Assembly: GCA_002104895.1 (NCBI GenBank)
Contig: MCFG01000152.1
Coordinates: forward strand, 1 to 64,000
Reading direction: 5' to 3'
DNA length: 64,000 nt
Source: Anaeromyces robustus
Lineage: Eukaryota > Neocallimastigomycota > Neocallimastigomycetes > Neocallimastigales > Neocallimastigaceae
Part shown: positions 22,311-64,000 of the stretch, piece by piece
How the letters are laid out: every line of letters starts with the position of its first letter
Position numbering within the stretch: the first letter of the stretch is position 1
Made by a program: the position numbers and the translations under genes
Notes under the pieces: model-generated
Seen by the model: the letters and a program-made list of their open reading frames with translations, nothing else
What the model was told of the DNA's origin: nothing
Databases searched by the model: none

Positions 22311-24590
22311 TCAATTATTAGTTGGTTTACTCATTTTAACATTATTACTTGAATCAACACTTTGACTAATTTTTGAAGGTATATTACTATCAGTACCACT
22401 ATTAATAATATTATTATTAATTTCATTACTAGTAACATTATTTTCTTTTTTGTATAAACTAAAGACAATACTTCTATCATCTTTTACATATAATAACATA
22501 ATATGTCTTCCATAAATAGCTATATAGTTGAAAATTGAATAAATTAATATACATACTGATAAAATTATATAATAAGCTATATAATTTTTAATAGGAAGAA
22601 ATTCTAATACTAAAAGTACAATAAGAATAATAAAATCAACAATAAATGAAGTAAAAATATATTTAGAATAATTTTGAATATCTATAATATCCCATTCTAT
22701 AAATATTAAGAATAAACCAATTAATACAAGTAATAATTCAAAAACAAAAATAATGATATATATAGTTTTTCCGAATAATTGATTTAATGAACATTTTTGA
22801 TAATTTTCTCCATTCACCGTTATAATTTTTTCAGTGGTATATGGATTTATTACTAACAATATATTTAATATCAAATCTATAAGGATGAAAATAAAAGGAA
22901 ATAAGAATTTATGCTTTTTACTCCATGAAGATATTTTTTTAATTTTTGAAAATATTTTATTATTCATCCATTCCAATAAATCATTGTTATTCATAAAAGG
23001 CGTATGATCTTTAAACCAGGAATGTATATATTCTTGATCTGGGAAATAAATAAATAATTTATATAATACTGGTATTAAACTAATAATAAATCCAAAAGAT
23101 AATAAAAGTCTTCTTAAATGACATTTTATGATGGTGATATCTTCAAAAATTGATATAATGGAACTTAAAATAATACAACTTCCTATAACTGTAAATACAA
23201 AGTAAAATTTTGGTATACAATTGAAACTAACACTGTATCTATTAATAACTAAATAGATTAATGATAAAATCATCAATATTGCTATAAATAAATAAATAAA
23301 TAAAATATTAAATCCAATACTGGAATCTCCTGAATTTCCTGAAATGATATAATACTTAGTGAGATCATCAATTTTTTTTATTACTTCATCTATATTTTTA
23401 TTATGGAATAAATAATCAATAACATTTTCTTGATATTTTCTAATATAATCATCAATACCAATTTCATATTTTTTTGTATCCAATGAATTTAATTGTAATA
23501 CTGAAGAAGGAAGTAAAGTATGCAATAATGTACAATTAACTGCATGACATACATCATCATCATCATATAAACTATATTGTGCTGAAAGTACATTTTTTTC
23601 AATAATCCCATTTTTTTGAAAACTTTTTGATGTAATATATTTCATAACTTCAAAAGCGTCTTTGTGATTTTCTTTTTTTGAATACTTGTTTATGGCTACA
23701 TTATAAGCACTTATAATGGAACCTGTAATTTCTTCTCTTTCTCCTGGTACATTTGATAATTCATATAATTTTGTATATATTTTTGAATACCAATATTTCA
23801 TAAATAAACTATTCCCAGTTACAAAATTTTCATATATTAAATCTTCATATGAAAAATTTGTACCTATTATTATTTTATTTATTTATTTAAATTTATATTA
23901 TTTAAAAACAATTATTAATTATATATATAATTATTTCTATATATAATATCTTAATTTTAATGGTATATTATGTATATATATCTAACTTATCTATTAACCT
24001 GATGAAACTTCTTCTGATATTCTTTTCAACATTTTCAATGCTTCTTTAGTTTCATCACTTTTTAATTCTGGATATGGTGAATCAATTGACTTTCTATATG
24101 AATTAATAAGCTGATGTATGAATAATAGCCCTTCTTCACTTTCTATTTTTATAATGTATTAAAAGATATATGTATTTATATATATATATATTTTAGTTAT
24201 TAATTATTATAATTTAATAAGATTATATATATATATTTATATATATATATATATATTATTATTATTTCATAAATAATGATTATATATATTATCAAATACC
24301 ATCAATTAATCCATGAAAACCTGTTAATTCATTATTATTAAGTTTTCTTTCTTCATTTAAAATATATTTAGTTGTATCTATTAACTCATCCCATGTTTTT
24401 GGTGCTGTTTTATTGTATTTATTTAAATATTCAATATTTGAATATAAGACATCTATATCTATTGTTATAGGCTAAACAATAATTATAATATTCATAACAA
24501 AATAATAATGAATATTAAATATTAAAGATTTGTCGATCATTATTATTATTATTTTTATTATTATTATATATTATTTATTATTTATTATTA

Positions 24591-24627
<37 letters not shown>

Positions 24628-25235
24628 AATTATTAATTATTATTATTTTAAAAATTTTTATTAATAAAAATAAATTTTTTAATAGTTACAAGTCCAACAA
24701 TGTGATTATCATATATACAAGTGTTTTCTATAATGTTTTTATCATATTCATCTATTTGTTCTTGTGGTATTCCATCATCTAAATTTAAGAAATATTTTCC
24801 ATATTGTTGAGTGTATAGTCCATAATAAAAATAAATATCATATTTATTTGATTTTTTATAAATGAGAGTATCCATTAATGAACTAAAATTATTTAATTCA
24901 ACAGTGAAATTTTCCGGCATTAAAAGAGTTAACTTTAATGTTACATCAATATCATTTTTAGCAGAATAATTATTAAAATCTTCAACAATTGAATTATAAA
25001 AATCAGTTTCATCGGGATATGCTAATGCTAAACCAGTAATTGTAACAGCTTTAATGATATCTTTATTTGTTTAATTATGTATATGTAAAATAATATTGTG
25101 TTAATATATCATATTAAAAAAATATATAGTATATTGTATAATAATTATTATAATTTTGTATATCATGTTGAATTAAATGCAATTACTTATATTTATAAAA
25201 AACAGCACAATGCATAATAGATTTTTAATATTCAT
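22311..25235 (-). CDS. Class C GPCR-like receptor with bacterial-type solute-binding ectodomain
   Basis: Five exons on the - strand (25235-25187, 25060-24690, 24471-24300, 24142-23999, 23863-22311) join in phase to 762 residues. Exon 1 gives the signal peptide MNIKNLLCIVLFFINI. Residues about 20-410 look like an extracellular family-1 solute-binding protein: VTITGLALAYPDETDFYNSI, KYDIYFYYGLYTQQYGKYFLN, LPITIDIDVLYSN and PKTWDELIDTTKYIL. The last part has about seven hydrophobic helices with CHLRRLLLSFGF and WDIIDIQNYSKYIF-like loops, as in the 7TM_3 (metabotropic glutamate/GABA-B) class. A polar Ser/Asn-rich cytoplasmic tail follows. The start is fixed by the signal peptide. The likely role is sensing an extracellular sugar or similar ligand at the plasma membrane and signalling through G proteins. 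The ligand is unknown. Confidence 0.85.
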
Positions 25236-30822: not shown

Positions 30823-30974
30823 TAACTATAAATGGAGATTTTTATTTTTTTCTTCAAAACAAACGAACAAACGAACAATAAATAATCAAAAACACTATTA
30901 TATATATATATTTTAAATATATAAATTATTATCTCTTTTTTATTTAGAAAAAAAAAAAATATACAAAATTTAAA

Positions 30975-32814
30975 ATGCAATATGAGGAATTTGAAAAGAA
31001 ACTTATTTCAAAATTATTAAAAAACGACAAAAAATGTATTAATATCATAGAAGATAATGCAAAAGCTGTTAATAATTATTTGAAAAATGAAGAAAAACCT
31101 ATTCATATTAAAAGTTTGGTCAGTAAACTTAATGATATAATTATAAACGAGTTGAATAAGTTCAAATATATAGAAAAAGTTTTAAAACATGAATTATTTA
31201 CAGAAATTCTTAAAGAATTTAGGGAAAGCAATATCTTAATTAGAGCTATTAAAAATAAAAAAAGAGACGCTGTGAAATGGTTAATGACTATGGATATCAA
31301 TTATTTTGTTCAGGATGAAAATGGAGTTACAGCTTTAATGGAAGCAGCTGCTAATTCTAACTATTTATTTGTAGTAAAAGAAATCTTGGAAAAGAATGAA
31401 GAGGTTGTAGATATCACTGATAATAATGATAGCAACGTCTTATTCTATGTTACAGACGAAAAAATATTTTCTTTACTCTATAATTCCAAAGCAGATTTTA
31501 ATCATATTAATAAGGATAGTGATACAGTACTTATTAAATGTTGTAGAAGAAGATTTTGTCCAAACTTTGAAAAAATATTAAATCGTACAGACAATATTAA
31601 TCATGTTAATAGTAGGGGAAAAACTGCCGCAATGTATTTAGTAGAAAATGGAAGAGCAGAGGAATTAAAAGCCTTATGTAGATTATATCCTAATTTAAAT
31701 TACAAAAATAAGGATAATAAAAGTGCCCTTACTATTTTAATTGATCAATTTAAAGATATCTATGCTAATGATAGATTTATATGTATGGAAGACTATGTCT
31801 GTACAATGATTATTTTAATGTTGAATGATTGTGATTTCAATGCTCCTATTGATAAAGAAGGAAATACTCCAATTATGTTTTTCATTATGGCAGGTGATTA
31901 TTTTACATCTACTCTTCTTCTTGAAAAATGTAAAAATCTTGATCTTTCTATTAAAAATGAACATGGAATTAGTGCTTCTTATCTTTTATTCTGGACTGAT
32001 TCCAACGAAAAAACCTTTAGACAAAAAATACTTTTCCATGATACCTTTGATAATGATTATATTGATAATGATAATAATAACTTAATCATGCATTTTCTTG
32101 CTAGAGGACAAATAAATGAAGAATATACTATCGCTTTACAAAAAAGAAAGGTAAAAAACCATGTAAATAATAAAAATGAAAATGAAATAATTATTGCTAC
32201 TAAATTAGGATTACTAACTGATGAACGATTATTTGATGGTAACGATGTTAACCAACAAGATTTTAATGGTAACACCGCACTACATTATGCTATTAAATTA
32301 AAAGATAAATATGTAATCAATATGTTAGCCTATCACAAAGCAGATCCAAATATAAAGAATGAACAAGGATTATCCGCCTTTTGATATGGCTAATGAAATG
32401 GAAGATAGTTCTATTATTGAAATTTTGAAAAATCCAATGAAGCCCGTAGATATGTCAAAGGAATTAAAGAAAGAAGATAAAAAAAAGAATTCAAAGGAAG
32501 AAAAATTAGACAAGAAACTTGATGACTATGTCAAACAATATCAAATTAACAATTATAAACCAGAATATGAATATTTAATAAAGAATAAAGTACGTTCCTA
32601 TTCTCGTATTAAAATTAGTAAATTTGCATTAAAAACACTTTGTAGAATCTATTTATGTTTATACAAAACAGAAGCACCAAATGTATTAGTTTCTGAAAGA
32701 GCTGAATATGAACTAGATGAGGCTGAACGTTTTGCTATCAGATGTGATTTGTTATTCGATAGTGATTTTGGTTATCATTTATTATTCTTAGAATTATTAA
32801 CAACCAAACATTAA
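30975..32814 (+). CDS. Ankyrin-repeat protein, interrupted by one +1 frameshift
   Basis: The first frame (30975-32384) encodes 469 residues of helical N-terminus and ankyrin repeats (ENGVTALMEAAANSNYLFVV, NSRGKTAAMYLVENGRAEEL, KEGNTPIMFFIMAGDYFTST, FNGNTALHYAIKLKDKYVIN). It stops in the middle of a repeat, at ADPNIKNEQGLSAF. The next base register continues the same repeat without loss (DMANEMEDSSIIEILKNP) and runs to 32814 with a Lys-rich and then a Cys/Leu-rich C-terminus. The joint is GCC TTT TGA T at 32376-32385. One T fewer, or a +1 slip on TTT, gives a continuous product of about 612 residues. The rest of both frames is intact, so this is a sequencing error, a very young lesion or programmed frameshifting. 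Ankyrin domains bind proteins; the partner is unknown. Confidence 0.8.
32376..32385 (+). promoter_or_regulatory. Candidate +1 frameshift site (GCC TTT TGA T)
   Basis: The zero-frame stop TGA directly follows TTT, and slipping one base lets the tRNA re-pair with TTT. TTT TGA shift sites are known from nematode antizyme genes. The surrounding four-T run is equally compatible with an assembly error. Confidence 0.35.
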
Positions 32815-35816: not shown

Positions 35817-36029
35817 GTCCAGTATTTTTCTAATAAAAAAATTCATTTTTAATTTTAATTTTAAATAAATAAATATAATAAATTAAAATATATTTATTTA
35901 AAATAATAATAAGTTTGTATATTAATTGTGAATAGTAATAAAAATATTTATTTTTTATTAATTGTGTAATTGAACAACAATAAATAATTAGTTATTTATA
36001 ATTGAGAAAAATTTTAAGTATTAAAAAAA

Positions 36030-37874
36030 ATGACTTTTTGTAATGCTAGTCATGGACATCACGGCCATCATGGTCATCATGGTCATCATGGTCATCATCA
36101 TGGTCATCATGGTCATCGTAGTCACCATAGTCATGAACATGGACATCATGGCCATTCTTTAAAAGAAAAGCCAAAAGTTGAACATTTTTTTGATAAGAAA
36201 GGACCTATTGGCTTTGCTGGTTTAGGAAAGTGTTATGGACATCCATCTTTTATGTTCAAGCATGGCCCTCATGGTCCTCATGGTCCTCATGGTCCTCATG
36301 GTCCTCATGGTCCTCATGGTCCTCATGGTCCTCATGGTCCTCATGGTCCTCATGGTCCTCATGGTCCTCATGGTCCTCATGGTCCTCATGGCCCTCATGG
36401 CCCTCACGGTCTTCACGGTCCTCATGGTCCATTTGGTCCATTTGCTGGTCCATTTGGCCTTTTTGGTCATGGTTATGGTCCTTTTGCTCGTCCACACCAT
36501 AAACATGGACATGAACATGGACATGGACATAGACACTGTAAACCATTTAGTTCATTTGGTCATTTTGATGAAATTGATTCTAAAAAGGATTGTGCTAAAC
36601 TTCATCATAAGCATGAAGATGAACATGAAAAGAAGCTTGTTGATCCATTTGGCTTAAAAGAAAAATGTAAGTATGGTTATGGTCATGAACGTCGTTGTCA
36701 CTCTTTAGGACCATTTTATCCATTTGGATATCCTCTTTATCCTTTTGGTTTTGGTAAACATTGTCATTCTTTAGACCCATGTACTTCTTTAAAGCATTAT
36801 AATCGTCTTAGTCGTCGTTGTCACTCTTTAGGTCCGGAAAATTTGTTTAGACATATTGATCATGATTATAGTAATCGTCGTTGTCATTCTTTAGGTCCGG
36901 AAAATTTGTTTAGACATATTGATCATGATTATAGTAATCGTCGTTGTCATTCTTTAGGTCCGGAAAATTTGTTTAGACATATTGATCATGATTATAGTAA
37001 TCGTCGTTGTCATTCTTTAGGTCCATATTCTCCTTTAAAGCATCATCATCATCGTCATCATCATCATCGTCATCACTCTTTAGGCCCAGAATTTAAAATT
37101 GGACATTACCATTCTCAACATGCCTTTGATCGTCGTTGCCGCTCTTTAAGTCCTGGATTTAGAATTAGACATCATCATCCACATCATGCTTTAGGTAGAC
37201 GTTGTCGTTCTTTAAGCCCTGGATTTAGAATTAGACATCATCATCCACATCATCCACATCATACTTTAGGTAGACGTTGTCGTTCTTTAAGTCCTGAATT
37301 TAGAATTAGACATCATCATCCACATCATCCACATCATACTTTAGGTAGACGTTGTCGTTCTTTAAGCCCTGGATTTGGATTTAGACGTCATCATTCACAT
37401 CATCCCTTTGGTAGGCATTGTTACTCTTTAGGCCCAGGATTTCCTTTAGTACATCATCGTGGTCGTCGTTGCTATTCTTTAGGTCCAAATTTTCCTATAG
37501 AACACATGCATCGTGGTCGTTGTAGAAATAGTAAAAATCTTGATATTTTTCCAAAATTAAAATTATGTAAAGATGAAAATAACTATTATATTAAAGCTAA
37601 ATTACCTGGTGTAGCTAAAGATAATATTAAAATTAAATGTCAAGACCAAATTTTAACACTTTCCGGTAAAAGATGTTTTGTTAAGGATTGTAAAAAGAAT
37701 AAGAATAAAAAATCTAAGGAAAAAAGAAAGTCTAAATCCAAAGTTTGTGATGTATATAAGTTTGAAAGATCAATTCATATCCCAAAAAATGCTGATATGA
37801 AAAGTATTCGTCCAATGATGAAAAATGATGTATTAGAGATTATTATTAACAAAGCTGAAACTCCAAAAGTATAA
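36030..37874 (+). CDS. His-rich repeat protein fused to an Hsp20 domain
   Basis: A single exon of 614 residues. Residues 8-45 are GHH repeats. Residues about 78-134 are some 18 GPH triplets from a 9-base DNA repeat. HGHEHGHGH follows. From residue 220 to 495 a short motif, R-R-C-[HRY]-S-L-[GS]-P, recurs about a dozen times, first in three perfect 63-bp units (36813-37001), then in longer units with RIRHHHPHH. Residues about 505-612 are an alpha-crystallin domain: FPKLKLCKDENNYYIKAKLPG, NIKIKCQDQILTLSGKRC, a Lys-rich insert, then VYKFERSIHIPKNADMKSIR and NDVLEIIINKAE. The C-terminus therefore resembles the Hsp20 at 27.6 kb, while the N-terminal 500 residues would chelate Zn, Ni or Cu. No signal peptide is seen, so it is probably cytosolic. 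A metal-responsive chaperone is an inference. Confidence 0.9.
   Translation: MTFCNASHGHHGHHGHHGHHGHHHGHHGHRSHHSHEHGHHGHSLKEKPKVEHFFDKKGPIGFAGLGKCYGHPSFMFKHGPHGPHGPHGPHGPHGPHGPHGPHGPHGPHGPHGPHGPHGPHGPHGPHGLHGPHGPFGPFAGPFGLFGHGYGPFARPHHKHGHEHGHGHRHCKPFSSFGHFDEIDSKKDCAKLHHKHEDEHEKKLVDPFGLKEKCKYGYGHERRCHSLGPFYPFGYPLYPFGFGKHCHSLDPCTSLKHYNRLSRRCHSLGPENLFRHIDHDYSNRRCHSLGPENLFRHIDHDYSNRRCHSLGPENLFRHIDHDYSNRRCHSLGPYSPLKHHHHRHHHHRHHSLGPEFKIGHYHSQHAFDRRCRSLSPGFRIRHHHPHHALGRRCRSLSPGFRIRHHHPHHPHHTLGRRCRSLSPEFRIRHHHPHHPHHTLGRRCRSLSPGFGFRRHHSHHPFGRHCYSLGPGFPLVHHRGRRCYSLGPNFPIEHMHRGRCRNSKNLDIFPKLKLCKDENNYYIKAKLPGVAKDNIKIKCQDQILTLSGKRCFVKDCKKNKNKKSKEKRKSKSKVCDVYKFERSIHIPKNADMKSIRPMMKNDVLEIIINKAETPKV
36263..36428. 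repeat. 9-bp coding minisatellite (GGTCCTCAT)
   Basis: About 18 copies in frame, encoding Gly-Pro-His. Most copies are identical at the DNA level; the last few show synonymous changes, so the array is recent or homogenised. Confidence 0.95.
36813..37001. repeat. 63-bp coding tandem repeat, three copies
   Basis: Three nearly identical units of 21 codons beginning RRCHSLGPENLFRHID. A partial fourth begins at 37002. Confidence 0.95.
37126..37400. repeat. 69-75-bp coding repeats (RRCRSLSP…RIRHHHPHH)
   Basis: Four units with CGTCGTTGCCGCTC-like starts and a variable number of CCACATCAT triplets, all in frame within the His-rich Hsp20 gene. Confidence 0.85.
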
Positions 37875-39960: not shown

Positions 39961-40131
39961 GTATCAAATTTTTCTTCATTAAAATATTTAATTATATAAT
40001 AGAAATTTAAACAATACATTTATTAATAATTAATAATTTATAAAATTTAAAACGGTATAATTCTTTTGAATAATTTATTTATTATTATTATTTATTTTTT
40101 CTCTTTTTAAATATAAAAAAAAAATACTAAG

Positions 40132-41088
40132 ATGTCTTTATGTTTATATAACCAAATGTTAAAAACTTCATTAGATGATCTTTCAGGAGATAACTTACTT
40201 TTTGACAATGACTTTTACTGTGAATGTAATATAGATCAATATGGAGATAGCTACCAAGGAAATAATAACGAATATAATCACAGGAATAATTACAAATTTA
40301 ATAGATATGAACACGGACAATGCCATAGAGATGGACATGGACATAAACATAAACATGGACATAAACATGGACATGGACATGGACATAGACATGGAGATAG
40401 ACACAGAAATGAATATAGATATGGATATAGAAATTTCTTAAGCAGCAATTATAGTTGTCATTATAATCATGATTCCCCAGAATATAATGATAATTGTAAT
40501 AATTATCATAACTATCATTTTGTAATGCTAAATGATAGTCATTACTTTAATAATCATTCAGTAGAATGTAGTGATGATTATCACAATAATCACTCTCTAA
40601 TATGCGATGAAAATTTTAATAATCAATATAGTTCTTCATTAGAATCAAATCATCAATTTGAAAGTCATGATGATCATCATGGTGATCATCATGGACATCA
40701 TGGTCATGGACATCACGGTCATGAACATTACGGTCATGAATATCATGGTGATCATCATGAACATCACGGTCATGGACATCATGGTATTGAACATCATGGT
40801 ATTGAACATCATGGTAATGAACATCATGGTATTGAAAATTATGATCATGGACATCACGGTTATGGACATCACGGTCATGGACATCATGATCATGGAAATA
40901 ATGGACATAATGATAAAAATCATGAAAATCATATACATAGTGAAAATTTCAATAACCATGAAAGTCAATGTATTCCTTCAAATATTAGTTTATTATATAA
41001 ATTAGAAAATTTATCAATTTCATGTGTTAATAATAATACAAATACTAATAATGATATTGAGATTCATTCCGATGAACCAAAAGAATAA
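40132..41088 (+). CDS. His-rich metal-binding-like protein, copy 1
   Basis: A single exon of 318 residues. The N-terminus MSLCLYNQMLKTSLDDLSGD is not His-rich and has no signal peptide. Residues about 62-90 are HGHKHKHGHKHGHGHGHRHG. The middle is Asn/His/Tyr/Ser. Residues about 180-265 are some 20 [HGN]-H-H-G-x-[EG]-H repeats. The C-terminus (LLYKLENLSISCVNN) is ordinary. No known domain is present; unlike the gene at 36.0 kb there is no Hsp20 region. Such His arrays usually bind Zn, Ni, Co or Cu. Compared with copy 2 the frame ends 11 codons earlier because a CAA is TAA here. It shares promoter and most of its sequence with copy 2, 3502 bases downstream. Confidence 0.85.
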   Translation: MSLCLYNQMLKTSLDDLSGDNLLFDNDFYCECNIDQYGDSYQGNNNEYNHRNNYKFNRYEHGQCHRDGHGHKHKHGHKHGHGHGHRHGDRHRNEYRYGYRNFLSSNYSCHYNHDSPEYNDNCNNYHNYHFVMLNDSHYFNNHSVECSDDYHNNHSLICDENFNNQYSSSLESNHQFESHDDHHGDHHGHHGHGHHGHEHYGHEYHGDHHEHHGHGHHGIEHHGIEHHGNEHHGIENYDHGHHGYGHHGHGHHDHGNNGHNDKNHENHIHSENFNNHESQCIPSNISLLYKLENLSISCVNNNTNTNNDIEIHSDEPKE

Positions 41089-43463: not shown

Positions 43464-43633
43464 GTATCAAATTTTTCTTCATTAAAATATTTAATTATAT
43501 AATAGAAATTTAAACAATACATTTATTAATAATTAATAATTTATAAAATTTAAAACGGTATAATTCTTTTGAATAATTTATTTATTATTATTATTTATTT
43601 TTTCTCTTTTTAAATATAAAAAAAAATACTAAG

Positions 43634-44623
43634 ATGTCTTTATGTTTATATAACCAAATGTTAAAAACTTCATTAGATGATCTTTCAGGAGATAACTTAC
43701 TTTTTGACAATGACTTTTACTGTGAATGTAATATAGATCAATATGGAGATAGCTACCAAGGAAATAATAACGAATATAATCACAGGAATAATTACAAATT
43801 TAATAGACATGAACACGGACAACGCCATAGAGATGGACATGGACATAAACATAAACATGGACATAAACATGGACATGGACATGGACATAGACATGGAGAT
43901 AGACACAGAAATGAATATAGATATGGATATAGAAATTTCTTAAGCAGCAATTATAGTTGTCATTATAATCATGATTCCCCAGAATATAATGATAATTGTA
44001 ATAATTATCATAGCCACCATTTTGTAATGCTAAATGATAGTCATTACTTTAATGATCATTCACTAGAATGTAATGATGATTATCACAATAATCATTCTCT
44101 AATATGCGATGAAAATTTTAATATTCAATATAGTTCTTCATTAGAATCAAATCATCAATTTGGAAGTCATGGTGATCATCATGGTGATCATTATGAAGGA
44201 CATTTTGAACAGGATAAACAAATTGAACAACATGGAGATTACGATCATGGACATCATGATCATGGACATCATGGTCATGGACATCACGGTCATGAACATC
44301 ATGGTAATGAACATCACGGTCAGGAACATCACGGTCAGGAACATCATGGTAATGAGCATCATGGTCATGGACATCACGGTCATGGACATCACGGTCACGA
44401 ACATCGCGGTCATGGACATCATGACAAAAATCATGAAAATCATATGCATAGTGAAAATTTCAATAACCACAAAAGTCAATGTATTCCTACAAATATTAAT
44501 TTATCAGATGAATTAGAAAATTTATCAATTTCATGTGTTAATAATAATGAAAATATTCATTCCGATGAACCAAAAGAACAAATTCAGGTATTATGTAAAG
44601 AAATACATACTTTAACTATCTGA
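43634..44623 (+). CDS. His-rich metal-binding-like protein, copy 2
   Basis: A single exon of 329 residues. It is nearly identical to copy 1 through residue 180, with scattered changes such as Tyr to His and Cys to Arg in the first His block. The second His region diverges. Copy 2 has an inserted YEGHFEQDKQIEQHGDYDHG segment and its own number of HGHEHHG-type repeats, so the arrays expanded independently after duplication. The C-terminus extends 11 residues further than copy 1 (EQIQVLCKEIHTLTI) and supplies an extra Cys. No recognised domain. Metal storage or buffering is the simplest inference; nothing shows which metal. Confidence 0.85.
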   Translation: MSLCLYNQMLKTSLDDLSGDNLLFDNDFYCECNIDQYGDSYQGNNNEYNHRNNYKFNRHEHGQRHRDGHGHKHKHGHKHGHGHGHRHGDRHRNEYRYGYRNFLSSNYSCHYNHDSPEYNDNCNNYHSHHFVMLNDSHYFNDHSLECNDDYHNNHSLICDENFNIQYSSSLESNHQFGSHGDHHGDHYEGHFEQDKQIEQHGDYDHGHHDHGHHGHGHHGHEHHGNEHHGQEHHGQEHHGNEHHGHGHHGHGHHGHEHRGHGHHDKNHENHMHSENFNNHKSQCIPTNINLSDELENLSISCVNNNENIHSDEPKEQIQVLCKEIHTLTI

Positions 44624-52149: not shown

Positions 52150-53134
52150 CCCTACTAGGCTGTCCTACTGTGTTATTAGCATTGACGTTCCTGGAGAGGT
52201 TGATTTTAAAATTATTGAACAATATATATATAAGGCATGATATCATTCAATAGAGTCGCAACAAGAATAGAGATTTTGAATATGTACCAGATTCGGATTG
52301 ATATTTAAACAATCATTCCCATTCCAATTAAAAAAGAATATAAATTCGATACCTATTAACTATTTTTCTATTACCTAAAATATCTATATTACATATACTA
52401 TTGATCCTATTATTATCACTACTTTTATAACCCTTAACAATATTATTAATTCTATTATCCACACTAGGTTTATAACTGGTCCTAACTAAACTATTAAAAA
52501 GATTATCTAAAAAATAAAAAAAATTTCTATCTAGATCAGAGAAGTGATCAATACGAAGATTTTTAAATAAAAAACAATTTATAAACCAATGATCAATTCT
52601 CTGATAACTGTCACAATGGAAACAATTATGAACAACAATTAGGACAAGAATTATTAATCATTTTTGCAGCTTTAGCAACTCTAGCATCGATTTTATATCC
52701 ACATCTTGCCCTAAGTATCCACCTAAAACCTTTGCTATATTCAGGAAATTCTAGATTAAGCTTTAAGTAATTCCTTGATTCTTCAAAGTTGTACATTTTA
52801 TAGGTTTTAGCTTTAATTGATTTATCACTGTTCATGTCTCTGTCCCAATAGAATTCCATAATTTCTTTAGTAGAGGATGAAATATTTTTTAATTTATCAT
52901 TTAATATTTTACTTTCTTTGTCCCAAGTCCATTTTCTTGTTGTAGCAACATTATTAACTATCTTTGAGATAATACAGTTGGAGTCCTTCCACTTATTAAA
53001 ACATCTAACTTGAGCTAAAGCACATTTACCAGAAAGTGGAGGAATATTAAGTTCTTTTGAGATGTAATAAATAGAAACAAAAGAATTAGGTTTCGAGTAG
53101 CCTAAAATCCAATAAAAACCTTTGTTTTCTATTC
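52150..53134 (-). mobile_element. 5'-truncated LINE (family A), C-terminal part
   Basis: From about 53120 on the - strand one frame runs open to 52626: GFYWILGYSKPNSFVSIYY, then ELNIPPLSGKCALAQVRCFN, KWKDSNCIISKIV, then FRWILRARCGYKIDARVAKA and NNSCPNC. This is the region behind the reverse transcriptase in LINE ORF2, ending in a zinc knuckle. Just past the stop another register reads NCFHCDSYQRIDHWFINC, completing a C-C…H-C knuckle, so there is one frameshift. The remainder aligns with the + strand copies at 20.9 and 41.6 kb. The RT domain itself is absent. Confidence 0.75.
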
Positions 53135-53420
53135 TTTTTTTTTTTTTTTTTTTTTTTTAGACTAAAGTAAAAGAATACATTTCTTCGTTTATTTATTATA
53201 GATAATTATTTAATACATTTATATTTTAAATATTTATTATATATTTTTTTCATTTTAATAAAATCAATTTAAAATAAAAACAAAAAAATATTTTTTTAAA
53301 TTCTATCTAAAAAAATCTATAATAAATATTTAAAATAGAGATAAATATCTGTTTAAAAAGTTAAAATATAGAACAATTTTTTTAGATATAATAATTCTAA
53401 TATTAATACCGATTAAAAAA
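53135..53420 (-). mobile_element. LINE 3' UTR (family B) with poly(A), abutting the family A copy
   Basis: On the - strand it ends ATGTATTCTTTTACTTTAGTC then TA and 24 A at 53158-53135, directly joined to the open frame of the family A copy. It looks like a truncated insertion into, or just ahead of, the older element. Confidence 0.45.
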
Positions 53421-53686
53421 AAAGATATAAAAAATTTAAAACTTTATAAATAATTCAAAAGACACAAAAATTATAATCAAAAAAACAAATATTTATTTTT
53501 ATATATATTACATATTTTATTTTATTTTTATAAATTTTTTTTAAAAAATAAATTATTATTTTTTCTTCTAGCATAAGAAAAAACAACAATTCCTTTTTAA
53601 CTTTATATATTAATACATTTTTATATTTTATATATTTATAATTTTTTTTAATTTTTTTTAATATTTTTTAATGGTATGGAATTTTT

Positions 53687-53826
53687 AAAAATTACGTAGA
53701 ATACTGCGCGGAGATACCAGTATCTCAGCGTCGATCACCTACTATCCTTTTCTTATTTTTTTTAAAGAAAATTCGTAAAAACATTATATTTTTAAGATGT
53801 CGAAGCGTTATCTATCAATAATTTTT
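53687..53826 (+). ncRNA. Structured RNA unit 1
   Basis: Outer stem AAAAATTA…TAGA with TCTA…TAATTTTT. Hairpin GAGATA/TATCTC with loop CCAG. It has GTCGATCACCTACTATCC and TGTCGAAGCG, one change from the consensus GCCGAAGCG. Confidence 0.55.
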
Positions 53827-54130
53827 TTAAGGTATATTATAGAATAATTCTTTTTCAAAAAGAATATTGCTTTACGCGTGTGTAAATTAATTATGTCATT
53901 GCGTATTAAAAAAAATGATAATTTTTTTTTTGTTTGTATGGATATAGTTGGTGTTAATAAACGTTTTTAATTGGATTTGTTTATTTTATCAAAAAATAAA
54001 TAATGAATGTATGTAAAAAAAAATTCTAAAGTACTATATAATTGAAAAAAATCTAAAAACTGTACAATAAATAAGTCTAATGTACTTAATTTTTTATAAA
54101 TATTATTTTTTGTTTTTTTGTTTTTTTTTT

Positions 54131-54256
54131 TTAAATAAGAAACAGTGAAAATCTGCGCGAAGGTGATACCAGTCTCCTCTGGCGTCGGTCATTTTTTCCA
54201 TATATGAACTAGCATATTAGAAATATTGCCGAAGCGAATTTCATCAAATTTCTTTT
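54131..54256 (+). ncRNA. Structured RNA unit 2 (most divergent)
   Basis: Outer stem GTGAAA with TTTCAT, extended by GAAA/TTTC. Hairpin AGGTGA/TCTCCT with loop TACCAG and one T-T mismatch. It lacks the CTACTATCC block and the second hairpin is altered, but GGCGTCGGTCA and GCCGAAGCGA are kept. Confidence 0.5.
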
Positions 54257-54279
54257 GAATTGATAATTATTTTCATTTT

Positions 54280-54434
54280 AAATAAATCGAAGATATTCTG
54301 CACGGGAGTACACAGTACTTCGGTGTCGGTCACCCACTATCCTTTTCTTTTTTTTTTTGATTTTGTTATTTTAGAAAATTCGTAAAAACATTATATTTTT
54401 AAGATGCCGAAGCGAAATCTTTCATAATTTATTT
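54280..54434 (+). ncRNA. Structured RNA unit 3
   Basis: Outer stem AAATAAAT…GAAGAT with ATCTTTC…ATTTATTT. Lower hairpin GCAC/GTGT instead of GCGC/GCGT. Upper hairpin GGAGTAC/GTACTTC with loop ACA. Blocks GTCGGTCACCCACTATCC and GCCGAAGCG are present. Confidence 0.55.
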
Positions 54435-54481
54435 ATAATCATTTTAATTTCTTAAATAATTGTTTGATTTGCTTTGTTTAA

Positions 54482-54610
54482 TAAACCGTGGTTATCTGCG
54501 CGGAGATATACAATACCTCAGCGTCGGTCACTTACTATCCTTTTTTTTCTAAAAAAATTCGTAAAGACTTTACGTCTTTAAAATGCCGAAGCGATTTCCA
54601 TCAAATTTAT
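54482..54610 (+). ncRNA. Structured RNA unit 4
   Basis: Outer stem AAACCGTGG with CCATCAAATTT. Hairpin GAGATAT/ATACCTC with loop ACA. The second hairpin is TAAAGAC/GTCTTTA with loop TTTAC, where other units have TAAAAA/TTTTTA. Shortest T spacer of the array. Confidence 0.55.
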
Positions 54611-54640
54611 TAATAGGTTAATAAATTATTAAATTAAAAA

Positions 54641-54814
54641 TAAACCGTGGCTATCTGCGCGAAGGAAATACCAGTTTCCTCTGGCGTCGGTCACCTACTA
54701 TCCTTTTCATTTTCTTTTTGATTTTTGATATTTTTATTTTTTAAATTTTTTTTTTTTGAAAATTCGTAAAAACATTATATTTTTAAGATGCCGAAGCGAT
54801 TTCCATCAAGTTTA
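54641..54814 (+). ncRNA. Structured RNA unit 5
   Basis: Outer stem AAACCGTGG with CCATCAAGTTT. Hairpin AGGAAA/TTTCCT with loop TACCAG. Blocks GTCGGTCACCTACTATCC and GCCGAAGCGATTTCC. Closest to unit 4 in its ends and to unit 2 in its hairpin. Confidence 0.55.
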
Positions 54815-57765
54815 TTTTTTCAGAATTTTAATTCCATTGGTAGTTTCTTTTCTTTAAATAAGAATAGTTATACAAATAAATATTTTATTTTCATAGATAG
54901 GATCATAATAATAATAAATATTTTTCAATAATTTTTTTTTTACTTTTTAATTTTTTAAAAAATGCTTTGTTAAAACAGTATAATTTTTTTTTCACAGAAA
55001 AAAATTTTTTTTTATATTAAAAAATTTTAAATATATCAAATATTTAAAAAGAAAAATTATCAAAAATAATTAAAACTTTAAAAATTTTAAAAAAAAATTA
55101 TTGAAATATTATCTTTTTTTAATATTTATTATTATTTGATTTGATGATAAAAAAATGTTTTTTACGAAAAATCACTTCCTTTTTATATTTTTTAAAAAAA
55201 TTAAAACATTATTAAAAAATGTTAATATTATTAATATTTATAGAATATAATATATGAAATAATATATTTGAATATATTATTTTATATATTTATCCATTAT
55301 ATTATATTATATTATAAAATATCATATAATATAATATATTCAAATAAATATTTAAATTTATATTAAATAAACTTTTTCTTTTATATTTACTATATATAAT
55401 ATATATTATAATAGAGTATATATTAATAGATATAAATAATATTAATAACCTTCTATAATAATTTCTATTATATAAACTTTATTTAATAGAAAATATTTTA
55501 ATATTATCATCACATATATTACAGTAGTATTGGATGATATATTTATATTAAAATAAACAATATATTATACTTAGTAATATATATAAATTAAATGTTCAAA
55601 TATATTATTGAATATATAATATTATATGATCTTTATAATAAATATAAAAATAAAATAGAATTATAGAAATAGGAGAGGAAATATGAGATAATTTTATTGG
55701 TTGAAAAGAAAGAAAAAGGAATAAATATGGATAGTAATAAAGAAATATACGAGTTTTTTTTAAAATTTATATAATTATATATATTATATAATATTTATAT
55801 ATATAATTCATATAAAACTTGTTTTATCTAAATACAAATTTTTAATACTATACAAAATATGAATATTATATATTATAATACATTATAATAAATTATAAAA
55901 TGAAATAGAGTCAAGCCTATATTTGAAAAAAAAAAAAATTAGTAAAAAAAAAAATTTAGGGCACTTACTATCTTACTATAGGACAGTTTTAAAAATCCTC
56001 TTATTTTATTTTTTTAAAAAAAAATGTAAATCAATTAGTAATAAATATATATAATATATATGTATATAAAAAACACTATTAAATTATTAATTATTATAAT
56101 TAATAATGATGAATTAATTTACCCTTTTATCTGTATTTTCTTCTTTCTTATTTTCATTAATATAATATATATAATAAAGGAGATTATAAAAAAAGAGAGT
56201 AATTCTATATAAAAATTTATTATTAAAGTTTATCTTATTCCTTTTAATATAAAATAATAATTACTATATAATAAGATGACATAACAAAATAAATAAAATA
56301 GATATTAAAATAAAACAATAACAGAATAACTATAATATTAAAAAACATAAATTAAAGAATATCTTATGAATAAAATTTAGTTTATTTAAAATAATAATAA
56401 AAAAAAGCTTGATGAATTTTTTATATTTATTCTTTAATAAAAAAAATAAGGTGAGAATAATAATTTATAAAAAAAATAATAATAGAGTTTTAATAAGTTT
56501 TACTTGTTTTGATATCCACTTAATTATTTACTAAATCATTTATCTAATTATTATTTTTTTTATTTATTTATTTATTATTAATTAATTTTTTTTTTAATAT
56601 TATAATACCTATAAATAAAATAATAATGATAATAATAATAATAAAAAAAGAAACATTTTTATTTCAATAGTTATTAATAAAAAAAACCTTTTTAATATTA
56701 TATGAAATTAAATTAAATTTTTAAAATCTAATTCGTTCAACTATGTAATATAAATAATATTATTTATTTTTTATATTTACTATATTAATTAATTGAATGT
56801 GATACAAAAAAATAAATTAAATTTTGTGCTACAAATTTTAATTATTATAAATTAATTTTTAAGTAAAAAATCATTATTAATAATAATAATAACTATAATT
56901 AATAATAAAAATGAAACACTTTAATATTTATTATTTAATTAGTTATTAAATATTATATGGATAAATTTTATATATATAAAAATATATAATAAAAAATAAT
57001 AATAATATCCATGTAAAATGAATATTATTTTCTTTTAGTATATAAATTATTTAAATTTTAAATATTAATATTAAAAAACCTCTCCTATTTTTTTTTTAAA
57101 CTTTTTTAAGATTTAGTAAAAAAAAATGAAAAAGAAGGAAAGAAAAAATATTATAAAAATTGATTTTTATTTGTTTTAAAATATGATAAATGATACACCA
57201 TAAATCATTTTGTTTATGCTATAAATTAACCATTAAAATATGAAAATAAAAAAAAACTATAAAATTAAAGTTAATAATTTTCGAAAATTTTAATAAATAA
57301 TAAAAATATTAATGATAACATATATAGAAATTGATAATATTATAATTCTTTTTATCACTGTTTCTTTTTTTTTTTTTTAAAACAGTAAAAAAAAATTATT
57401 AAACGGCATATATTACGAAAAGATATATTTTATTATTATATACAGAATTTTTTCATATAACCTTGTAATTACATAAAATAAAGATTTGTAGAATTAATAG
57501 AATCTTAATACTAATAATAATAATATCTTTAAGAGAATATTTAATGAAAAGTATTATGCCATATTTAAAAAAATATTAATTAATAGTTGAGAAATAAAAT
57601 ATTTTTAAATATTAAATATATTAATAATTACAATTATTATAAAATATTGTATAATTATAATAATAATTTTTACAAAATTTTTATTATAATTTATTAATTG
57701 TTGATTATTATTATTATCAACAATTAATAAAATAATAATAATTATTAATATTTTGTTTTATAAGT
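54815..57765. other. Gene desert
   Basis: A+T spacer with poly(A)/(T) runs. No frame or RNA gene could be supported. Confidence 0.6.
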
Positions 57766-58300
57766 ACAATAATGGCGGTTCTTCATAATATTATAATTAT
57801 ACAGAATAGTCAGTATTATTTATATAAAACAAATAATGATAATAATAATTAATAATTAATAAACAATAATAATAATATAATTATTATTATTATAATATTT
57901 ATATTTTTTTTGGTACATATAATAATAATAACGACGGTTCAATATATATTATATTTTTTAATTAACAGAAAAATAATGAGAAAATAAAAATAATTTAATA
58001 TATTTTGTTTTTCTTGGTAAAAATAACGACGGTTCAACCTAAAACCTAAATATTATTTTATAATTATAATAATAATTAATAATTAATAAAAAAATAATTA
58101 TTATTAATATTTTTAAATATTATTTTATAATTATTATTTTTCGCAACTATTTTATAACAATAACTATGGTTCTTGTAAAAATTATTTTTTATAATTATTA
58201 TGATAAAAATAATTAAATATTAATAAAAAAATTGTTAATAAAAAAAATAATAATTATAATTAATATTTTTTAAATAACTATACAATAACGACGGTTCTTG
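57765..58300. repeat. Dispersed GACGGTTC motif, five occurrences
   Basis: Near 57775 (GGCGGTTCTTC), 57931 (ACGACGGTTCAA), 58026 (ACGACGGTTCAA), 58163 (ACTATGGTTCTTG) and 58288 (ACGACGGTTCTTG). Each is preceded by AATA-type sequence and separated by 95-160 bases of pure A+T. The copies are too far apart for a simple microsatellite. Confidence 0.5.
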
Positions 58301-61300
58301 CTAGTTTTATAATTATATTGAAAATGATAATAATAATTAATAATTAATAATAAAATAATAATTAACAATGATATTGAAAATGATAATAATAATAATAATA
58401 ATAATTAATAATAATTAATAATAGAATAATTATTAATAATAATTGCTTATAATATTTGTTTTACATCTAAATATAGATTTATAAAGCAATATAAAAATAA
58501 TAATAGTTTTCAATCAATAATTATTAATTTAATTATTTTATATATTAATTTATTTATTATATTTATTTATTTTATTTATTTATTTTATTTATCATCAAGT
58601 TATACATCCAGTTAATATTATAATTATTATATAAAATTAATATTAATTTTTTTTATCCATAATTCATTATTTTTTATATTTTTTCTTATTAATTATATTT
58701 AGAAATTTATGATATTAAGTTTAGGATAAAAAACGAAAAATTATATTAGGTAAAACATCCTTGTCTTAAACCTAAAAATTTATTAATAATAATATATATA
58801 AATTTTTTTTATTTTTTTTTTTAATTCGTCGGTGATTTAAATTTTAACAAAAAAACTTTTTTTTTTAAAAAAAAATATATATTTATCAAACTATAATAAT
58901 TAATATATAAAAAATTTTTTAAAAAAAAAAATTCTTATGAAAATTAAAAAAAATTTTAAATATTAGAATTATTATTAATTTAAAGTATATTTATAATATA
59001 TTGGTAATTTTTGTTTATAATATATTATTCCTTATATAATATATTTTGTAAATATATTACCAATATATGTCGAAATAAATCTTTCAGTGTTTTAAAATAA
59101 TCCAATAATATACTTTCAAAAAAATTAATTAGTCTAACTTTATATTTATATTTATTAAATTAAACTTTAATAATTTTATTTAATAGTTATATATAAAATA
59201 ATATATAATTATATATATAATAGTTCATTATTTTAAATATATTTAAAAAAAATATTATATAATTAATAATATGTATGGATAATATATTATAAATATATTA
59301 TTTAAAAAAGTTTTTTTTTTTTAAAAAAAAAAATTTTATAGGTGTAAATTTCTGTCACAATGAAACTTTTATAACACGATATAACAAATATAACAAATAA
59401 TAAATAGTTAAAATATATATACAATAATAAATTTAAAATATTTTTTTTTCTTATATGGAAGTATTAACCACAATTTAAAAAAGAAAAAAAAAATTGTTTT
59501 ACTTAAAGTTGTCAAATATAGATAGGATAAAACAAAATTTTAAAAAAAAAAAAATTTCAAAATTTTAAAAAAAAAAAAATTTCAAAATAAAAAATGATAA
59601 TAATTCCAAACATCATATAACATTATGCATGTTTTATTTATTAAATTAAAATTAATAATAAAAACAAAATTAAATAAAACAAATAAATTAGAAAAAAAAA
59701 TTTTTTTTACAAAAGTAGTAAAAGATAATTTATGCAATGAACTAAAATTAGAAACTAAAGGCTTATAAAAAAATTTTTAATAACTAACTAATAATGGATA
59801 AATAATAAATATATAAATTTAAAAATAATTAAAGAAATAATGCTAAAAATAAAAAATAAAAATAAAAAAAAAAGGCTTATGCTTTTTACTTTTATTAATA
59901 ATATCCTATCATTAACCATTAATAAATAAATAAATAAAAAGAGTCATAATTATATTAAATATATATATAACTGCCAATTTTTTATTTAATATTTAATTAC
60001 TTGTAAAACGTTATACCATTTAGAAAATTAATATATAAACTATTATTAACTCTTAAAATCTTTTAATAACATAGGCAATCATTATCCATAAATATTATAA
60101 ATATTATAATAATATTTTATTTATTATTATTTTTAATTAAAATGGATAATATTAATTAAAAAGAAAAAAAATTTTATTTAAAACAATAATTAATACGTCA
60201 TTTTAAATCATAAAAATATCTTTTTATTTTAAAATTTTAATATTTTTATTCCTATAATATATTACAATATATTATTTTAATAAATAGATTAAAATATATT
60301 ATATTATAATATATTATAACGGGTAAAATAAAAATAATAATAATTTTTATAATTATATAATTAAAATTTATCTATTTAAATAGTTTTTATTTATTTATTT
60401 TAATTAATATGTTTTACATAAATAAATCAATAAATAAAAATTATTAAAATAAATAAATCTTTATTATATTATTATATTAAATAATTAATATATAGTAACA
60501 ATATATTTAAATTAAATAAATATATAAAACTTGATAATATAAAAAAAAACATCTCCAAAATAAAAGAAAATTTTTTAATTTTTAAATTTTAATTTCTTTT
60601 TTTTTTTTTTTTTTATTTTTTAATAAATTTAATGTTTCAAAAAATAAATTTTTATTGTTTTTATTTTATAATAATCATCTTACAAATATTATGACGAAGT
60701 TAATTAGTGGTACTTTTATCATTACACAAATTTCACTTAACAATTTATTAATAATATATTAATATTACACAAATTAAATAAAATAAAGTTGTTTATTATT
60801 AATAGTAAAAAAGTTTATTTTATATTTAATTGAATTTATTTTAAATGATTTTCAATGAAAATAATTAAAAAATACATATATTATAATGTATTCTAATATA
60901 AGTATATATTTAAAATAATATATCATAACAATATTCATATTTATAAATAAAATTCAATTGATTTTTCAAAAGAGATTTTTATTTAAAACATTAAAATTTA
61001 TAATCATGTTTTAAAATTTAATAAAGTAAAATAATAATAATGATAAAATTATTATTACTTACTTATTATTATGATTATTGTTTTTTTTTATTAATATTTT
61101 AGATGACTTTTTATATTAAATATTTTATATTGTTGAAATATAAAAGTCATAATTATAATTATATGAAAATAAGTTATTATTATTCCTAATAATTTAAAAG
61201 AATAAAAATAAAATAAAATAAAAAATAAAAAACAATTATTAATATAATTAAATTAATAAAAAATAAATTGTATGTAACGTTAAACCTTTATTAATCATTC

Positions 61301-64000
61301 AGTAATCATAATTAAAGTCATTAATTTCTTATTATTTTACCCAAAACAAAAACGATATGAGAAAAAAAATAAAAGTATATAATAAAATTAATAAAATAAA
61401 TAATAAAAACTTAACCGCGCATATTAAAATATATAAATTATTTTATAATTATTTTTATGTTTTTATCATCTCTATATTCCTAACCATTTTCTATATATAT
61501 TTTATCGTTTATATTTCCTAACCATTTTTTAACATGTTTTATCGTTTATATTTTCTAACCATTTTTTTTTACATTAATTTCTAATAAATTATAAATACAT
61601 AGTTTAGTAATATTAATTTTTTCTTCCATTATTCTTTTATTTCCTTAAAGAGCGTTAATAATAATAAATATAATTAAATTAATATTATATCAATTATAAA
61701 AAGAATCATTATTAAATTAAAAAAATTAAAAGGATAATATTATAAAATAAAAGATAATTAATAATTAAAATCGATTAATTAAAAGAAATAATACTAAATT
61801 CTTCTTTAACAATTAATAAAAAAATAAAATATAAGAAAAATATAATAAAAATGGATAAATTATTTTTTATTATTATTTTGTTTTTCATTAGTTATTTTAA
61901 AAAAAAAATATTAAAATAATTTTTTTAATAATTATATTAATCCTTAACCTCCATATTAATTCTTTTACTTTAATTTCTATATATATAATACATATAATAA
62001 AATATAATTATATTATATAATAAAGTTTATATTTATTAATTTAATTTCTAAAAAACCAATATATTATAATTTAATAAAAATATATACTCAATTTATTTTA
62101 TTATTAATATTAAAGTTTTTTTTTTAAAAATTATCATGAAATTTAAAAAAAATTAAAGAATAAAAATAATTTTAAGGATAAATGAAAGTTAATAATAATA
62201 AAAAAAAAATTAATTAAAAGATATTAATTATATTTTAATATATAATAATAGTTACTTTTTAAATAAAGAACAAAAAAAAAAAGTGATATTTTTAAAATGT
62301 ATATAATAAATGATATAATGATATAATTATATTAATAATAAAAAATAAGGATGAAAAGTAAATTATTAAAAAAAAAAAGATTTGAAATAAAGTTTTTAAT
62401 ATAATTTTATTATGAGTTTTTTTGATCATATAATCGTATAATCATAAAAAAAAAAAAAAGACAAATAAAATTAAATATAATAAATATTGAAAGAAGAAAA
62501 TAATAATAAAAAGATAGGGTCATCATAATAAAAAAATGATAATTGTTAATCTATATATATTGTATTTCTATTATTTATAATATAATATTATGTTCATTAT
62601 TCTATTAATAAATATTTTTAATATTATTTTAAAGATTTGCTTTATAATATTACTTATATTTTAATATTTCATATTATATTAGTATTATTTTAAAATATGA
62701 TCATCATAAAAACAATATATAATTTTTAAATAATAATAATAATATAATAAATAATAGTATTTTTTAAATAATAGTATTAATCTTAAATATTAATAAGAAC
62801 AATTTTTATTTGTCTTTTTTTTTTTTTTTTATTTTATTTAAAATGAATCATCATCATATGAAATTGCTAAATTATATAAAACAAGAGAGACAATCTTTAA
62901 AATACAGAGACATTTTTTAAAAACAATAATTCTCTTTTTTTTTTTTTTTTTTATTTTTAATTTTTAAACATGAAAAAAATTTATTGTTATAATTATACTA
63001 ATAATCACGCTATTGCTTTATTTTTATTTTATTTAATTGTATATAATTATTTAGTTTTATTAAGTAATCATTATCAAAGATAATTTATGTATATATCTTT
63101 TTCCTTTTTTTTTTTTTTTTTTGAACAAAAATAATAATATTATTGCTTAATTATTAATTATTATAAAAGAGATTTTTTATATATATCTTATTCCTATTTT
63201 TTAAAAAATAATAATTGTAATATTATTACTTAATTAATTTTTAATTATTAAATATTATAAAAGATATTTTTTATGTATATCTTTTTCCTATTATTTTTAA
63301 AAAACAATAATCATAATATTATTGCTTAATTAATTATTAATTAATAGTTATTTATAATATATTTCTTTTCACTTTTTTTTTTTATTTTGTTAATTTTTTA
63401 TTTATTATTATTTTTTTAATTTCATTTTTTTGTATCATTTTTTTTAATTATTACTTCTTATTCATATTTTTTATTTCTATTATTTTTATTATTTTTCATT
63501 TTTTTCATGTTTTCTATTTTCTAATAATTTTTAATTTTACCTGTCACAAAAGATCACAAGTTCAGTAAAAATAATTTTTTATGGTTATACAAATTAAAGT
63601 TTTTTTTTTTATTTTTTTTAAAAAATAAACAAAATATACAAAAAAAATTTTTTTTTTAAAAAAAATCACAATTGAAATAATTAATACCATAGTTAATGTT
63701 AATTTTATTTTTTTATCATCGTAATACAAATATTTAAAAAATTTATTTATATATTTATTTATTTATTTATTATTTTTTATTATTATTAATTTATTTAATT
63801 TAATATAATCTATTAATTTATTTTATTTATTTTTTTAAAAAAAATTTAATGAATTAAATCTTCAAGATATATTTTAATATATTTTTTATATATTATATAT
63901 TAAATATACTATATATATTTTATTATAATTTAAATATATTGAAATATATATAAAATTATATTAATATTTTTGTTATTTAATTTAAAGAAAATAACATAAA
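58301..64000. other. Gene desert to the window end
   Basis: Nearly six kilobases of A+T-only sequence with AAT and homopolymer runs and many weak inverted repeats. I see no gene, RNA or element here. Confidence 0.6.

Follow-up and report, generated by a model that had tools for sequence, protein, structure and literature searches.

In clustered non-coding RNA genes, such as polycistronic snoRNA clusters, paralogous small structured RNAs lie a few tens of bases apart. The locus described here resembles them in this arrangement and in its apparent co-transcription, but differs in that no snoRNA family is found in it at the Rfam threshold. The helices of the Neurospora VS ribozyme follow the order II-[III-(IV,V)]-VI. 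One account of this ribozyme describes its 3-4-5 junction, a U-turn and, within region III, a bulge at 718 (PMC4598650). Comparative sequence analysis has also yielded 15 structured RNA motifs in fungi (Li and Breaker 2017; PMC5640933). The main text of that report makes no mention of Neocallimastig, chytrid or tandem, and as far as this main text goes the present array, likewise a putative structured fungal RNA, would be distinct from the 15 motifs. In the gut-fungus literature, as represented by listings and the opening parts of abstracts, no structured non-coding RNA is named.

We identified an array of five tandem units at one locus of Anaeromyces robustus, within a window that comprises the whole 64-kb stretch of DNA analyzed. 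Judged from its sequence, the array is a real and unrecognized covarying fold present in five tandem copies.

The array and its common fold

A sequence-only reading had pointed to five copies within about 1.1 kb, and hand alignment confirmed them over a full array span of 53685-54819, with all five unit sequences matching the window letter for letter (Table 1). The units are 124-184 nt long and form an island in AT-rich DNA, their GC content being 28-37% compared with 8.9% and 10.5% in the flanks. Units 1 and 2 are separated by 305 bp (53829-54133), and the remaining three spacers measure 20, 40 and 21 bp.

Table 1. Units of the array and their helices, located by hand alignment (window positions). 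The strand given is the probable one. Bit scores are from a covariance model and are no independent test of the units, because the units themselves built the model.
Unit	Span	Strand	Bits	P0	P1	P1c	P2	P3	P4	P5
1	53685-53828	-	144.4	53685-53694/53819-53828	53696-53704/53807-53815	53706-53707/53805-53806	53708-53729	53731-53737/53798-53803 (extension 53738-53740/53795-53797)	53748-53753/53766-53771	53776-53794
2 (variant)	54134-54257	-	77.7	54134-54143/54248-54257	54145-54153/54236-54244		54157-54183	54185-54191/54227-54232	54194-54199/54219-54224 (P4-like)	
3	54278-54436	-	147.7	54278-54287/54427-54436	54289-54298/54414-54422		54302-54324	54326-54332/54405-54410	54343-54348/54373-54378	54383-54401
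4	54477-54614	-	150.2	54477-54486/54605-54614	54488-54496/54593-54601		54500-54522	54524-54530/54584-54589	54541-54546/54552-54557	54562-54580
5	54636-54819	-	128.5	54636-54645/54810-54819	54647-54655/54798-54806		54659-54685	54687-54693/54789-54794	54704-54709/54757-54762	54767-54785

Several short words recur in the units. In the 64-kb window CTGCRCG has five exact matches, all inside the array (expected 0.08), while GYGTCGRTCA with at most one mismatch has six, five of them exact and in the array (expected 0.58), and ATTGYCGAAGCG with at most two mismatches has seven, five in the array (expected 0.61). These counts lie far above chance, as the proposal of common GC-rich words would predict, with one correction: CCGAAGCG is present in four of the five units, and unit 1 has TCGAAGCG in its place, with the pairing partner changed too.

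The common fold consists of a closing stem, P0/P1, which leads to a three-way junction with P2, and of P3, which connects to another three-way junction, from which P5 and P4 arise. On the minus strand P0 forms an AU stem with at most 10 pairs (6 of 10 compensated), followed by a U.G pair in four of the five units and then by a G-C pair with a bulged A. P1 has mismatches or a bulge mid-stem, then a bulged A and two invariant pairs (P1c); up to these two pairs, P0 and P1 together contain 16-19 standard pairs when read on minus, interrupted by mismatches and bulges. P3 carries a bulged A, and in the four full units it gains another three pairs, an invariant U.G among them. P3 proper varies at a single pair, where A-U replaces G-C in unit 1. 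P5 begins at the second three-way junction with zero joining bases, and the 5' to 3' order on the minus strand at this inner junction is P5, CGAA, P4, GGAUAGU, the second P3 strand, and then hairpin P2. The CGAA and GGAUAGU joints are identical in the four full units. P4 is an A/U stem whose loop is unconserved and 5-47 nt long, the 47-nt loop being that of unit 5. The P2 loop is nominally 2-4 bases, and the P2 internal loop differs among units. Unit 2 keeps P0 to P3 and is without P5 and the GGATAGT joint, a plain hairpin replacing the inner junction.

The outer stem and hairpin tip proposed in the sequence-only reading both exist, as does the hairpin base GCGC/GCGT with its paired change, the P2 base being A-U in unit 3 where the other units have G-C. 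The proposed second hairpin, TAAAAA/TTTTTA changing to TAAAGAC/GTCTTTA, is found in four of the five units but is absent from unit 2. The fold is larger than that reading described, gaining the AT closing stem P0, the P3 extension and the P4 stem. One compensated pair, A-T to G-C, is seen in P5 of unit 4. Identity among the units is mosaic, at 24/27 between units 2 and 5 in P2, 17/18 between units 4 and 5 in P1, and 26/26 among units 1, 3 and 5 in the P5 block, a pattern that would fit unequal exchange or gene conversion between tandem copies.

A covariance model was built from a MAFFT alignment of the five units and scored over 12 sources, in which nothing apart from the units themselves exceeded 10.0 bits. 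The 305-bp spacer, 53829-54133, contains a weak match resembling the outer stem (54055-54096, 9.9 bits), with an E-value of 0.012 in 321 bases without filters and of 3.5 in 97,673 bases. A decayed sixth unit in this spacer, as the match might suggest, is not convincing. The same spacer has 17% GC and contains an ACGC...GCGT inverted pair.

Covariation and strand

Selection on base pairing in the array, as first proposed from its paired changes, is well supported by comparison of the unit sequences. In the final minus-strand model 24 of the 53 proposed pairs change on both sides yet stay Watson-Crick. Two MAFFT alignments, A1 (plus) and A3 (minus), which represent the same five units on opposite strands, were compared with shuffles that ignore kinship, the data being five paralogs from one genome. 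For the 28 named pairs of A1, 90.9% of cells (one unit by one pair) are paired versus 83.5% when shuffled, and 11 pairs have both sides changed versus 4.5, values reached by none of 500 shuffles; of the five measures, four stood clear of every shuffle, and the fifth, further pair types, was reached by 9 of 500. For the 52 named pairs of A3, 22 are changed on both sides versus 9.7 when shuffled, and none of the five measures was reached in 500 shuffles. Sliding the partners by 1-3 columns reduces the paired cells of A3 from 87.0% to 42.1-52.1%.

RNAalifold gave a similar picture on the hand alignment, in which the P4 loop was shortened. On the plus strand the energy is -27.7 versus a column-shuffle mean of -3.0 (sd 2.0, minimum -17.2; 0 of 1000), and 20 pairs are compensatory versus a shuffle mean of 1.4 and a maximum of 10 among 1000. 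On the minus strand the energy is -31.15 versus a null of -2.7, the lowest of 500 being -10.5. The column shuffles preserve the gap pattern and the letter count of each column, but the hand alignment is fitted to the structure and therefore favors this test, and the named-pair structures of A1 and A3 were derived from the same sequences. RNAalifold on A3 with no structure given is free of both biases; it predicts 40 pairs, 18 of them compensatory, and recovers P0, most of P1, P2 and P3 while drawing a different pairing instead of P4 and P5.

When the strands of each helix were swapped between units, the units' own arrangement was reached by 1 of 120 for P0 and P2b, the minimum possible, and by 6 of 120 for P1, P4 and P5. 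Swaps are uninformative for P2a and P3 (24 of 120) and for P1c (120 of 120), as these helices hardly vary. The folding energy of single units is modestly below that of shuffles (z -1.41 to -2.84).

The locus is probably read from the minus strand, to judge from the modeled pairing. Of the 255 cells of the final model, 220 hold Watson-Crick pairs; a further 16 are G.U on the minus strand, 3 are G.U on the plus strand, and 16 are of other kinds. The consensus energy of -31.15 on minus is lower than that on plus, in all five leave-one-out sets as well, and the strand difference of -3.45 was reached by 13 of 300 nulls. With RIBOSUM scoring of the hand alignment, RNAalifold returned nearly the whole minus model. 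The wobble tally depends on the register, however, standing at plus 8 and minus 7 in the first hand model and at plus 8 and minus 12 with the P3 extension; it reached plus 3 and minus 16 only once the boundary between P0 and P1 had been shifted, following structure-free RNAalifold. Per-unit energies favor minus in no more than three of the five units. The first hand structure had an energy of -23.96 on plus and -23.08 on minus, with three of four scorable units favoring plus, and the energy of the whole array is lower on plus (-213.7 versus -191.2).

Comparison with the genome and with known RNA classes

In the 70.2-Mb genome (769 contigs), five pattern searches that together covered overlapping stretches of the unit found the family at this locus only, a result that rests on patterns that strongly diverged copies could escape. 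The family is thus multicopy, as had been suggested, in the sense of having five copies, but by pattern search all of them lie at a single locus. Two additional TGYCGAAGCG sites in the genome fell below family membership by the covariance model, which likewise recognized no members among two 3-mismatch pattern matches elsewhere in the genome and 10 further near matches (the reversed-pattern control gave 12). A dispersed repeat or SINE was rejected on these grounds, the pattern searches giving one locus and the near matches no members. A DNA search of the genome with the array returned 37 other matches, restricted to the AT-rich spacer (query 295-456) and to unit 5 (query 1010-1098), where they cover the surroundings of the T-rich P4 loop; seven of the 37 were scored with the covariance model and none matched the family. 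With the matches confined in this way, the array does not appear to be a decayed part of a known repeat.

Searches for relatives elsewhere gave matches at chance level at best. A 20-base pattern had no matches and an 18-base pattern had seven; when these seven were scored together with the 10 near matches from the genome itself, two gave matches no better than chance (10.4 bits and E 2.3 for the higher-scoring one). A two-word pattern occurs in at least 120 stretches of viral contigs, with no covariance-model match among the 80 matches listed. A three-word pattern, whose gap limits fit the spacing of three of the five units, occurs in 8 stretches of viral contigs and at least 120 of prokaryote contigs. 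Of the 128 three-word stretches scored, 88 gave no match and the other 40 gave one at chance level (10.6 bits, E 7).

The sequence-only reading had found no ribozyme, snRNA, snoRNA or riboswitch consensus in the array, and cmscan against the 4227 families of Rfam 15 is in agreement, with no match at the gathering threshold in the window. At E-values up to 10 the array gave four sub-threshold matches only, none to a ribozyme family. On both strands all snoRNA families stayed below the Rfam threshold, with two C/D-box families as sub-threshold matches (E 5.5 and 9). ARAGORN in its bacterial setting detected no tRNA or tmRNA genes in the window, and these classes were rejected on that result. The Rfam method works on this genome, since it located two host U6 genes (RF00026; 68.9 and 67.5 bits) on other contigs and the host RNase MRP elsewhere in the genome (62.9 bits). 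The 5' stem-loop and 3' end of the host U6 genes diverge from the Rfam consensus, and their core is intact.

A few short words of the array resemble human U6 snRNA. Descent from U6 was rejected, however, as the array is unmatched by RF00026 and the host U6 lies elsewhere, without those words in alignment. In the minus-strand model the two linked three-way junctions and the helix order P1-[P3-(P5,P4)]-P2 may correspond to those of the VS ribozyme, a likeness judged on helix order. The bulged A of P3 is reminiscent of the bulge in the VS linking helix, and the joint from P4 to P3 contains UAG, a possible U-turn, where the VS ribozyme is described in the account cited as having a U-turn near its inner junction (PMC4598650). 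The spacers of 20, 40 and 21 nt show by eye no shared hairpin that could correspond to the VS substrate. The counterpart of the helix V loop, which in the VS ribozyme recognizes the substrate hairpin, would be the P4 loop, and this is variable in length and sequence, and the P2 internal loop, which would correspond to the active-site loop of helix VI, also varies between units. Because the units show no substrate hairpin by eye, and neither their side loop nor the counterpart of the active-site loop is conserved, we do not file the array as a VS ribozyme.

Possible functions and genomic neighborhood

The reading we favor, with some reserve, is a single co-transcribed non-coding RNA gene in which a new structured RNA is present as five paralogs. 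The transcript, if read from the minus strand, would carry five paralogous structured RNAs of 124-184 nt each. With 20, 40 and 21 bp between them, units 2-5 probably share a transcript, since separate promoters would have little room before three of the five units; unit 1 is 305 bp away. Runs of at least five T lie inside all five units on the plus strand and inside four of five on the minus strand (unit 2 excepted), which argues against a Pol III small RNA gene, expected to be free of such internal runs. Compensated variation in the stems contrasts with the constancy of the inner joints, and this makes the inner junction the probable contact site. In each unit this fixed junction would bind one partner, either a protein or another ligand, although unit 2, which is without it, is a point against the inner junction as the proposed functional site. 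The five copies might provide several binding sites on one transcript, or might be cleaved at the closing stems, each cut releasing stable small RNAs.

Tandem structured domains occur in UTRs, and the units might instead be cis-acting domains (riboswitch-like, or serving stability or nuclease stalling) in the UTR or intron of a protein-coding transcript. At 20-40 bp, three of the four spacers would place the domains near enough for joint action. We nevertheless regard this as unlikely, since the region 53160-64000 contains no stop-free frame of at least 80 codons (the longest has 75), a result that short exons or genes beyond the window could escape but that also speaks against the array being part of a protein gene. 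In addition, the next frame downstream on the minus strand, 0.5 kb away at 52629-53156 (-), is a reverse-transcriptase-type repeat fragment. It is more improbable still that the array is a DNA-level element, such as a cruciform or protein-binding palindromes. The Watson-Crick cells, 220 of 255, suit either strand equally well, but in 16 cells G.U on minus becomes A.C on plus, compared with 3 of the opposite kind, an asymmetry unexpected of DNA and yet moderate, given the minus 7/plus 8 and 12/8 of the earlier registers.

A lineage-specific form of a known eukaryotic RNA class, so strongly diverged that the Rfam models miss it, is again improbable. The short words reminiscent of U6 speak for it, whereas host U6 and RNase MRP, the two classes covered by genome-wide search, are accounted for elsewhere. 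The possibility that each unit is or contains a ribozyme cutting a multimer into monomers gains from the tandem arrangement, the VS-like helix order, the bulged A in P3 and the UAG that may form a U-turn. We consider it highly improbable, as no Rfam ribozyme family is matched at E-values up to 10, the spacers share no hairpin by eye, the P4 loop and the P2 internal loop are unconserved, and the array occupies a single locus. A further reading, in which the array encodes a new gut-fungus RNA machine of VS-convergent architecture, a double three-way-junction RNA with the invariant CGAA/GGAUAGU junction catalytic or ligand-binding, is improbable. If transcribed, the array of paralogous structured RNAs that we favor would represent a new RNA family with an unusual tandem organization and a defined candidate active junction. 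Its five natural variants form a ready mutational series, and so much internal covariation within a single genome would make the RNA directly testable.

For the reverse-transcriptase-type fragment at 52629-53156, 151 matches are listed in the genome, counting the fragment itself, and most show 93-97% identity; among its relatives in Anaeromyces robustus one carries a reverse transcriptase domain. Linkage of the array to this fragment was rejected; the array does not belong to the repeat, given that it was detected at a single locus. Beyond the window the GC content reaches up to 0.30 in 250-base steps. Downstream of the window on the same contig, which is 142,936 bases long, 5,000 bases read N, and the seeming absence of genes beyond the array may partly be an assembly effect.

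Several protein-coding regions were noted elsewhere in the window. An ankyrin protein at 30966-32381 has 62% identity to its best named Anaeromyces robustus match, and for both this protein and the reverse-transcriptase-type fragment the closest named relatives come from that anaerobic gut fungus. The frame at 22311-25070 (-) has a class-3 seven-transmembrane match of 33.2 bits, compared with a Pfam cut-off of 33.5, and an adjoining frame, without a Pfam match, appears by eye to be part of a solute-binding protein. At 40117-41088 and 43577-44623 (+) lie two closely similar histidine-rich repeat proteins, the former without a Pfam match; the pair is an apparent tandem duplication. Finally, the protein encoded at 36018-37874 (+) joins a long His/Gly/Pro repeat region to a C-terminal Hsp20 domain, an unusual build for a small heat-shock protein.
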